NCBI GenBank assembly: GCA_025359845.1
Contig: JANYDT010000023.1
Location: 1-50,953 of the forward strand
Direction of reading: 5' to 3'
Origin: Acidimicrobiia bacterium
GTDB taxonomy: Bacteria; Actinomycetota; Acidimicrobiia; Acidimicrobiales; JANYDT01
Length of the DNA: 50,953 nt
This document shows positions 14,093 through 16,915 of the stretch, piece by piece; position 1 is the stretch's first letter; every line of letters begins with the position of its first letter. The notes under the pieces are model-generated. The model was not told the origin of the DNA, ran no database searches, and worked only from the letters and a program-made list of their open reading frames with translations. The position numbers and the translations under genes were made by a program.

Positions 14093-15010
14093 ATGCCCGT
14101 TACCCCTACCCCGAAGATCTGGATGAATGGCACGTTGGTCGACTGGGCCGACGCCAAGGTCCACGTGCTCACCCACTCGCTTCACTATGGGATGGGCGTA
14201 TTCGAAGGCATGCGGGCCTACGAGACGAGCGGGGGTCCGGCCATCTTCCGCCTTACCGACCACATGAAGCGGCTGCACAACTCGGCCAAGATCCTCGGTA
14301 TGCCGATGCCGTACACCGTCGATGAACTCATCGCCGCGGCCAAGGCGACCGTCATGACCACTGAGCTGCCCGGCTGTTACGTCCGTCCGATCGCTTATCT
14401 GGGGTATGGCGAAATGGGGCTCAACACCCTGCCGTGCAAAACTGACGTGTCGATCGCCTGCTGGCCATGGGGAGCCTATCTCGGCGAGGACGCCCTCGAG
14501 AAGGGCGTCCGTATGAAGATCAGCTCCTGGGTCAGGCACGGTCACAACACGATGCCGCCGGCGGCCAAGATGACCGGTAGTTATGTAAACTCGTCGCTCG
14601 CCAAGGTCGAAGCCCTCAACGCCGGCTACGACGAAGCGATCATGTTGAACGCGCAGGGCCTCATAGCCGAGTGCTCAGGGGAGAACCTGTTCGTGGTGCG
14701 CAACGGCGTGATCGTCACACCGCCGCTTTCGTCGGGCGCCCTCGAAGGCATCACCCAAGATTCCGTCATGACCATCGCCCGCGACCTCGGTTTCGATGTG
14801 CGGCTCAGCGAACTCGCCCGCTCCGACCTGTACATCGCCGAAGAGATCTTCGTGTGCGGCACCGCCGCCGAAGTCGGATCGGTCAACTCGGTGGACGACC
14901 GTCCCGTGCCCTGCCCCGGTCCGATCACCTTGGCCATCGCCGCGGAGTACGCCAAAGCCGTGCGGGGCCAGGTCGACAAGTACAAGGATTGGGTCGAGCA
15001 CTGCTCCTGA
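14093..15010 (+). CDS. ilvE: Branched-chain amino acid aminotransferase
   Basis: PKIWMNGTLVDWADAKVHVLTHSLHYGMGVFEGMRAYET...; start chosen at ATG 14093. Confidence 0.93.
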   Translation: MPVTPTPKIWMNGTLVDWADAKVHVLTHSLHYGMGVFEGMRAYETSGGPAIFRLTDHMKRLHNSAKILGMPMPYTVDELIAAAKATVMTTELPGCYVRPIAYLGYGEMGLNTLPCKTDVSIACWPWGAYLGEDALEKGVRMKISSWVRHGHNTMPPAAKMTGSYVNSSLAKVEALNAGYDEAIMLNAQGLIAECSGENLFVVRNGVIVTPPLSSGALEGITQDSVMTIARDLGFDVRLSELARSDLYIAEEIFVCGTAAEVGSVNSVDDRPVPCPGPITLAIAAEYAKAVRGQVDKYKDWVEHCS

Positions 15011-15056
15011 GCAAACCCGGGCGGGGGCCCTTGACAACGCGCCTAGACTGGCGTTC

Positions 15057-15104
15057 GTGAAGACGCCCGCGACCGCTATCGCCAGCATCATCATTATTTC
15101 GTAG
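15057..15104 (+). CDS. Attenuation leader peptide VKTPATAIASIIIIS (5 Ile of 15 residues)
   Basis: GTG AAG ACG CCC GCG ACC GCT ATC GCC AGC ATC ATC ATT ATT TCG TAG directly upstream of hairpins and cimA. Confidence 0.75.
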   Translation: MKTPATAIASIIIIS

Positions 15105-15105
15105 C

Positions 15106-15128
15106 GCGCACCGCCCACCGGTGTGCGC
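15106..15128 (+). promoter_or_regulatory. Upstream hairpin of the attenuator
   Basis: GCGCAC...GTGCGC inverted repeat immediately after the leader stop codon. Confidence 0.6.
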
Positions 15129-15131
15129 CCC

Positions 15132-15160
15132 AACGACCGCCTTCGGGCGGTCGTTTTCTT
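15132..15160 (+). terminator. Intrinsic terminator/attenuator before cimA
   Basis: AACGACCGCC-TTCG-GGCGGTCGTT perfect 10-bp stem followed by TTCTTTT. Confidence 0.88.
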
Positions 15161-15222
15161 TTCCTTCACGACCCACCGCACCCCGCGACCCACCGCAAAC
15201 CCCGCGACACTAAGGAACGACC

Positions 15223-16842
15223 ATGACTGTGCATCACGAAGAAGTCGGCCAAGTGCTGGCCGCCCTGCCGCCCAAGTCGGTCGACATCTACGACACGACG
15301 CTTCGCGACGGCTCCCAGCAGGAAGGCATCTCGCTGACTGTTGAAGATAAGCTTCGGGTCGCGCGCCAACTCGATCATCTGGGCGTGAAGTTCATCGAGG
15401 GCGGCTGGCCGGGCGCCAACCACAAGGACTCGGAGTTCTTCCAGCGGGCCGCGGCGGGCGAGCTGAAGCTGTCCACCGCAACCTTGGTGGCGTTCGGCAT
15501 GACCCGCAAGGCCCACGGTCGGGCCGAGGACGACAAGGTGCTCGCCGAGCTATTGGCGGCCCAGACGCCGGCCGTCTGCATGGTTGCGAAGTCTTGGGAC
15601 TATCACGTGCTCAATGCCCTTCAGGTCGACTTGGAAGAAGGGGTGAACATGGTGCGCGACTCCGTCCGGTTCCTGCGCAGCGAGGGCCGCCGGGTCTTTC
15701 TCGACGCCGAGCACTTCTTCGATGGCTACCGCAAGAACCCCGACTACGCGCTGCGTATCCTCGACGCGGCCGAAGCGGCCGGAGCGGAGGCACTAGTGCT
15801 GTGCGACACCAACGGCGGCTTCCTCCCATCCGAGGTCGAAGAAATCGTGCAGGCCGTGCGGGCCCACACCAGCGCTACGCTGGGCGCCCACTTTCACAAC
15901 GACTCGGGGTGCGCCGTGGCCAATACCCTCGCCGCCGTTCGCTGGGGGGCGACGCAAGTCCAGGGCTGCCTGAACGGCTATGGGGAGAGGACGGGAAACG
16001 CCGACTTGTCAGCCGTGGTGCCGAACCTCAGCGTGAAGATGGGCATCGAGACCCTGCCCGAGGGTCGCCTCGACCGCATCACCGCCGTCAGCCATCACTT
16101 GGCCGAGATCGTCAACCTTGCGCTCCCGTCCCAACGCCCCTACGTCGGGACCAGCGCGTTCGCCCACAAGGCCGGTCTCCACACCAGCGCCATCGCCCGG
16201 GCCCGTGACGCCTACGAGCACATAACACCCGAACTGGTCGGCAACGGGACCCGATTCGTGGTCAGCGAAATGGCCGGTCGATCGACCATCGAGCTGAAAG
16301 CGGCTGAGCTCGGCCTCGACCTCACCGGCGCCTCCATGGGGGCCATCCTCGACCTCCTAAAGCGCCGCGAGTACGAGGGGTACCACTACGAGGTGGCCGA
16401 CGGCTCGCTCGAGTTGCTGCTGCGGGAGGCGACCGGCTGGACGCAATCGTTCTTTCGTCTGGAGACCTACCGAGTCATCACCGAGGAGCGCGCCGACAGG
16501 TCCACGTCCACCGAAGCCACGATCAAGGTGTGGGTGGGCGACGACCGCATCGTGAGCACGGCCGAAGGCAACGGCCCGGTAGATGCGCTGAACGGAGCGT
16601 TTCGGGCCGCCGTCGGTGATCGTTATCCGGCGCTCGCGGCCGTGCATCTCACCGACTACAAAGTGCGAGTCCTCGATTCGAAAGCGGCGACCGCGGCGGT
16701 CACCCGCGTGTTGATCGACTCGTCGAATGGCGAACGGGAGTGGTCGACCATCGGGGTGTCGGAGAACGTCATCGAGGCCAGTTGGCAGGCCCTCAGCGAC
16801 TCGATCGTTTACGCGATGCTGCACCCGCCGGTGGCCGAGTAG
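15223..16842 (+). CDS. cimA: (R)-citramalate synthase
   Basis: KSVDIYDTTLRDGSQQEGISLTVEDKLRVARQLDHLGVKFIEGGWPGANHKD...; overall CimA-like layout with C-terminal regulatory domain; Ile leader upstream agrees. Confidence 0.88.
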   Translation: MTVHHEEVGQVLAALPPKSVDIYDTTLRDGSQQEGISLTVEDKLRVARQLDHLGVKFIEGGWPGANHKDSEFFQRAAAGELKLSTATLVAFGMTRKAHGRAEDDKVLAELLAAQTPAVCMVAKSWDYHVLNALQVDLEEGVNMVRDSVRFLRSEGRRVFLDAEHFFDGYRKNPDYALRILDAAEAAGAEALVLCDTNGGFLPSEVEEIVQAVRAHTSATLGAHFHNDSGCAVANTLAAVRWGATQVQGCLNGYGERTGNADLSAVVPNLSVKMGIETLPEGRLDRITAVSHHLAEIVNLALPSQRPYVGTSAFAHKAGLHTSAIARARDAYEHITPELVGNGTRFVVSEMAGRSTIELKAAELGLDLTGASMGAILDLLKRREYEGYHYEVADGSLELLLREATGWTQSFFRLETYRVITEERADRSTSTEATIKVWVGDDRIVSTAEGNGPVDALNGAFRAAVGDRYPALAAVHLTDYKVRVLDSKAATAAVTRVLIDSSNGEREWSTIGVSENVIEASWQALSDSIVYAMLHPPVAE

Positions 16843-16886: not shown

Positions 16887-16915
16887 TTGACAAATCCGAG
16901 CGACAGACGTATCAT
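16887..16915 (+). promoter_or_regulatory. Near-consensus housekeeping promoter TTGACA-N17-TATCAT
   Basis: TTGACA 16887-16892, TATCAT 16910-16915, 17-nt spacer, ATG at 16928. Confidence 0.7.

Follow-up and report, generated by a model that had tools for sequence, protein, structure and literature searches.

A candidate isoleucine-responsive transcription attenuator ahead of cimA in an Acidimicrobiia bacterium

The interval between ilvE and cimA in the DNA of an Acidimicrobiia bacterium carries a short leader reading frame with a run of isoleucine codons near its end, a hairpin that begins at the leader stop codon, and an intrinsic terminator. We propose that these parts make up a ribosome-mediated attenuator of cimA transcription, by which charged isoleucine tRNA would be sensed, and give this reading a probability of about 0.8. 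The conservation of the leader and of the hairpins, together with regulatory codons that track the downstream gene, argues strongly for a real isoleucine-responsive, ribosome-mediated attenuator. A preliminary description had called the element a translational attenuator; this term is replaced here, since a terminator with a U-tract makes the attenuation transcriptional, and tests for masking of the cimA start gave no general effect. Positions are those of the window, that is, the whole stretch of 50,953 nucleotides that was analysed.

Layout of the ilvE-cimA interval

All the parts were read on the plus strand between the stop of ilvE at 15010 (ilvE, 14093-15010; NF005146 / TIGR01122) and the start of cimA at 15223. 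The leader reading frame (15057-15104) consists of 15 codons, VKTPATAIASIIIIS, and the stop codon TAG (15102-15104). Its codons, GTG AAG ACG CCC GCG ACC GCT ATC GCC AGC ATC ATC ATT ATT TCG TAG, are as written in the preliminary description, of which all the details readable from the sequence are correct. The putative regulatory run ATC ATC ATT ATT (15087-15098) places four isoleucines at codons -5 to -2 relative to the stop, so that the peptide ends ...SIIIIS. A 10-bp hairpin, HP1 (15104-15128), shares its first base with the end of the stop codon; it has the form GCGCGCACCG-CCCAC-CGGTGTGCGC with arms at 15104-15113 and 15119-15128, and corresponds to the hairpin noted earlier right after the stop. 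A gap of 3 nt, CCC (15129-15131; 0-5 nt in relatives), separates HP1 from the intrinsic terminator T (15132-15165), in which a 10-bp UUCG stem, AACGACCGCC-TTCG-GGCGGTCGTT (15132-15155), is followed by the U-rich tail TTCTTTTCC, again in line with what had been noted ahead of cimA. The cimA start lies 57 nt beyond this tail.

Folding of the segment 15050-15165 gave -50.7 kcal/mol with a z-score of -5.2, no shuffled sequence being as low, and the z-score for the HP1 and T hairpins alone was -6.25. The putative regulated gene (15223-16842) codes for a citramalate synthase: its product scored 658 bits with the equivalog model TIGR00977 (cut-off 450), and every leuA model scored under its own cut-off, in agreement with the former naming of the gene as cimA and not leuA.

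The probable -10 element TAGACT (15044-15049) ends 7 nt upstream of the leader GTG. A well-spaced -35 element was not found ahead of the leader, as the TTGACA at 15031 is separated from TAGACT by only 7 nt versus the usual 16-18. Among the relatives, a promoter pattern of TTGAC, about 17 nt, and TANNNT ending 6-9 nt ahead of the ATG or GTG recurs, and therefore the leaders are probably translated from leaderless mRNAs, as had been supposed for TAGACT. A near-consensus promoter, TTGACA-17-TATCAT, was observed at 16887-16915, 45 nt past the cimA stop, in contrast to the weak promoter ahead of the leader.

Conservation of the element and choice of codons

The comparison drew on cimA loci of 148 genomes belonging to this order and of 80 additional contigs. 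One same-family genome was examined and a cimA orthologue was not matched in it; the usable relatives are all from other families. Scanning for isoleucine-rich short reading frames upstream of cimA, with the peptide alone as criterion and no RNA model, gave 11 loci besides the window. In none of the 11 was ilvE found just upstream; in each, the peptide ends in III(I)X before the stop, a hairpin lies at the stop, and a terminator follows. As a MAFFT alignment of the 12 loci misregistered the hairpins, covariance models were built stepwise. In the structure alignment of 16 sequences, 97.4% of cells were paired and two-sided changes were observed in 16 of the 17 pairs (compensatory changes in 8/9 modelled pairs of HP1 and 8/8 of T); none of 500 shuffles was as good, and slid versions reached 30-57%.

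The covariance model R1 was built from five other species, the window sequence being left out. Because it finds the window site in the whole of its own genome (4.7 Mb) with an E-value of 8.8e-8, the element in the window is more than chance. The only other match of R1 in this genome at E-values up to 10 was a similarly built leader ahead of leuA (E 9e-4; L193:1484-1584, G000:C196), which reads ATG ACC GCT CTG GCC GGA CTC CTT CTT CTC ATG TAG (MTALAGLLLLM*) and is followed by a hairpin at the stop, a terminator, and leuA at L193:1692. R1 also detected the element ahead of leuB-cimA pairs beyond the reach of the peptide scan. A second model, R2, matched 280/397 genomes from the order and 230/296 from the class. 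Among genomes sampled across the phylum it matched 61/397, some of these outside the class. R2 is biased to isoleucine codons and to the spacing of the first loci, and the gap and the position of the hairpins were therefore re-measured without it (see below). The leaders and hairpins looked for upstream of cimA orthologues are thus conserved in hundreds of genomes. A pattern search for similarly arranged Trp leaders in the window's own genome stayed at chance level, with 47 matches versus 287 in the reversed control.

The tie of the element to cimA, as first described, holds only in part: an isoleucine-only leader does stand ahead of cimA, but most relatives have the element before leuB-ilvE-cimA, with valine and isoleucine codons. 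Synteny of 191 loci indicated that most genomes of the order have a cimA start overlapping the ilvE stop or lying close behind it, with the leader located further upstream. In the window this ilvE-cimA coupling is lost, and leuB is not adjacent either.

Codon identity was compared in 115 loci with an identified downstream gene, including 33 cimA and 79 leuB leaders. Within the last six residues, cimA leaders contain on average 3.6 Ile and 0.12 Val, and leuB leaders 2.5 Ile and 1.4 Val. The leuA leaders contain 3.7 Leu with LLLL runs, two of the three leuA assignments being made by hand from the Leu runs and from the query cimA being a LeuA paralogue. Valine is present in this segment of 3/33 cimA versus 66/79 leuB leaders (Fisher 8e-14, the sequences not being independent). 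Isoleucine occupies codon -2 in 110 of 112 leaders with both ATC and ATT in common use, and therefore it is the amino acid and not the base that is conserved at this position. The regulatory codons thus follow the target, being Ile-only for cimA alone, Val/Ile for leuB(-ilvE-cimA), and Leu for leuA. This match between codon and product agrees with the earlier proposal of an isoleucine-sensing leader peptide, and we consider it the strongest evidence for the predicted function short of experiment.

The same layout was observed in the phylum set ahead of ilvB (leaders ending VLVLIT, VLLIE, and IVLR), ahead of leuA (LLLLS, LLLT), and ahead of the start of a leuS-like gene (LLLT). The ilvB cases L322, L328, L329, L330, L331, and L332, mostly outside the class, carry mixed Leu/Val/Ile runs such as NVLVLIT* in front of the stop-HP1-T arrangement. 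At L325, the leader MKEISAPTATLLLT* with this arrangement precedes a reading frame resembling the start of leucyl-tRNA synthetase, which we take to be leuS-like from its N-terminus, its 28 residues giving no family match. At L326, a VLLIT* run with the same layout stands before a reading frame without a family name, and a simple scan found no start codon within 100 nt. The window's own genome also carries a threonine dehydratase gene (L341; G000:C192:57320-58432), the product of which scored 394 bits with ilvA_1Cterm, over the cut-off. Both routes to 2-oxobutyrate may therefore coexist in this genome, and cimA need not be the sole route to isoleucine.

Ribosome position, HP1 and the terminator

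Constrained folding was performed with ribosome masks placed at successive codons. With the A site on run codons 1 to 4 and on the stop, mean HP1 pairing was predicted to be 0.99, 0.99, 0.77, 0.31, and 0.00, respectively. For the window, the values under the same masks were 1.00, 1.00, 0.36, 0.31, and 0.00, and a ribosome at the third or fourth isoleucine of the run already partly opens HP1 (0.36, 0.31). With HP1 high on the early run codons and abolished at the stop, HP1 acts in this model as the read-out of ribosome position, in place of a trp-type antiterminator. T was predicted to pair at about 0.98 in every ribosome state, and therefore secondary structure alone fails to explain the switching.

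The spacing of these parts was determined by a model-free measure. HP1 starts -2 to +3 nt from the stop, with T 0-5 nt after HP1, in 44 of 50 leaders; the same layout was detected at 13 of 289 stops of control short reading frames. The start of T tracks the end of HP1 (r 0.87), even where HP1 is about 10 nt longer; the TGA-stop leaders L080, L081, L086, and L089, located upstream of leuB, have such a longer HP1, and their terminators are shifted equally. The spacing between T and the gene is variable, the shortest being 9 nt and the standard deviation 31.

Pairing that could compete with the terminator was searched for in three ways. Covariation in 118 distinct sequences gave no antiterminator outside HP1 and T, no stack combining high pairing with an excess over column composition; none had been seen by eye in the window before. 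Plausible segment pairs were then permuted across loci, and as the sequences are related, the resulting p-values are not strict probabilities. The HP1 arms, used as the positive control, gave a z-score of -20. The HP1 3' arm against the T 5' arm gave +2.6, that is, weaker than random; the HP1 5' arm against the T 3' arm, -1.2; the leader against T, -0.4; and the HP1 5' flank against the T 5' arm, +1.7. Extension of HP1 into the T 5' arm was tested and none was found. A protector (1:2) hairpin involving the leader codons was not found either, the leader against the HP1 5' arm giving -0.1, and pairing of the codons with HP1 was inconsistent between groups (+2.0, -2.5). A pseudoknot between the HP1 loop and T was unsupported by permutation, and the segment GGCGTTC just ahead of the GTG, which resembles the T 3' arm, was set aside because it lies 5' of the expected start of the leaderless transcript.

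Proposed mode of action and its alternatives

The mechanism that we propose is as follows. A leaderless mRNA with its 5' end at the GTG or close by would be translated as it emerges. When isoleucine tRNA is amply charged, the ribosome would reach the TAG and cover the 5' arm of HP1, keeping HP1 open; T would then close, and transcription would stop ahead of cimA. When charged isoleucine tRNA is scarce, the ribosome would wait at the first isoleucine codons, HP1 would form, and polymerase would read into cimA. From the logic of the pathway, isoleucine starvation is very probably the condition of read-through. HP1 and T share no bases, but as T starts 0-5 nt after HP1, we propose that HP1, when formed, keeps T from closing by juxtaposition: closing the lower stem of T would require drawing HP1 into the RNA exit channel, which HP1 would block. 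We hold this step, to which the probability given at the outset does not extend, tentatively and at somewhat less than even odds.

Among the other explanations, we rank first a stalled ribosome that itself prevents termination by docking on RNA polymerase, the folded HP1 and T lying in between; HP1 would serve only to shorten the RNA so that ribosome and polymerase meet at the U-tract. The compact stop-HP1-T spacing without free RNA between the parts would suit such docking, as would a T that can fold in all states; we nevertheless regard it as unlikely, because about 60 nt separate the isoleucine codons from the U-tract, and because docking predicts a selected total distance, whereas HP1 varies in length and T follows HP1. 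Ranked next, and somewhat less probable, is classical attenuation with a hidden antiterminator, in which an arm of T would pair with HP1 or with the leader in mutually exclusive folds, the scheme put forward for ilvB1 of M. tuberculosis and ilvBNC of C. glutamicum. The order of the parts and the ribosome positions are indeed as in the models for M. tuberculosis (PMC13236596) and C. glutamicum (PMC11857589), and about 79% of sequences could form a weak 4-bp stack between the HP1 3' arm and the T 5' arm. When the HP1 5' arm was masked and the T 3' arm not yet made, this pairing reached a mean of 0.42 and 0.68 in the window. It is possible only with the ribosome at the stop, and is of the wrong sign and not selected; against a hidden antiterminator stand also the 118 sequences without a qualifying stack and the permutation scores set beside the control of -20. 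A shared-strand antiterminator was tested and not found, and the element is not of the classical trp type; that scheme in its usual form is probably not applicable.

Translational control comes after these and is improbable. Here the ribosome at the stop would free the HP1 3' arm to pair with the cimA start and block translation. This arm can pair with the SD or AUG in several cimA loci (for example, GUGCUCGU:AUGAGCAC at L145), and the cimA subset gave a z-score of -2.6 (p 0.003 before correction), but the 79 leuB loci (z +0.9) and all loci together (z -0.7) show no such effect, the T-to-gene spacing is variable as given above, and in the window pairing was found only 5' of the SD. Least probable by far is an ordinary ilvE terminator of two adjacent hairpins with coincidental isoleucine codons. 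Although the hairpins come directly after ilvE, and a report on adjacent-hairpin clusters proposes them as general terminators (PMC8355165), the element also stands ahead of cimA, leuB, leuA, and ilvB where ilvE does not lie upstream, and there it has matching codons and its own -10 element.

As in E. coli trp-type attenuators, the regulatory codons are located just before the leader stop, and HP1 occupies the place of their antiterminator (2:3). Region 3 is common in trp to antiterminator and terminator, whereas nothing is common to the two hairpins of the cimA element. Leaders of the cimA type with mutated start codons are predicted to read through, whereas those of the trp type superattenuate.

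By its most likely mode of action, the element is akin to the known actinobacterial attenuators of branched-chain amino acid (BCAA) genes. M. tuberculosis ilvB1 likewise has a short upstream reading frame with LVVI codons near the stop, and whether the ribosome is at the stop or on these codons decides termination before BCAA genes; codon-dependent attenuation has been shown and the ribosome-at-stop logic proposed (PMC13236596). A mutually exclusive antiterminator is proposed in that case and none was found for the cimA element, the gene differs, and the codons are tuned per gene here. The ilvB-II motif of Corynebacterium and C. glutamicum ilvBNC (PMC10272879, PMC11857589) share a leaderless BCAA-rich leader, a hairpin P1, and a U-tract terminator P2. 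In Corynebacterium the reading frame covers most of P1 and the antiterminator overlaps the terminator; HP1 of the cimA element starts at the stop and does not overlap T. The leaderless leader peptides leuL2, leuL1, and ilvL of S. lividans before leuS, leuA, and ilvBHC, some with a hairpin and a U stretch, are also similar, but their regulatory codons lie farther from the stop and no cimA case is included (PMC8079986). Leader peptides with Ile/Val/Leu runs before actinobacterial BCAA genes (ilvB, leuS, and the LEU element of leuA) were described by Seliverstov et al. 2005 (PMC1262725), in whose set there is no Acidimicrobiia genome and no cimA or leuB-ilvE-cimA leader is reported, and who left the mode of ilvB regulation open. 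In the LEU element, a pseudoknot is described in which the Leu codon run pairs with the SD at the base, and no terminator is described (PMC1262725); the cimA element has a terminator, and the tests of the HP1 loop with T and of the start region were negative overall. Our search, limited to open-licence papers, brought up no description of a leader ahead of cimA or leuB-ilvE-cimA. Neither the window nor ten related loci matched an Rfam family at gathering score, the best permissive hit being Hrs13 (22.9 bits vs 52).

The leader and its hairpins offer a defined and searchable RNA element for the BCAA genes of a class that is large but little studied, and the codons used for sensing are retuned for each target. 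It is possible, though we hold this more doubtfully than the blocking step itself, that it represents a widespread class of actinobacterial attenuators that switch without mutually exclusive pairing, the ribosome opening or freeing a hairpin next to the terminator and this abutting hairpin alone deciding whether the terminator closes. If this non-overlapping design is true, the textbook need for competing hairpins in attenuators would not be general, and the mode of action of the actinobacterial BCAA leaders, open since 2005, would become testable.
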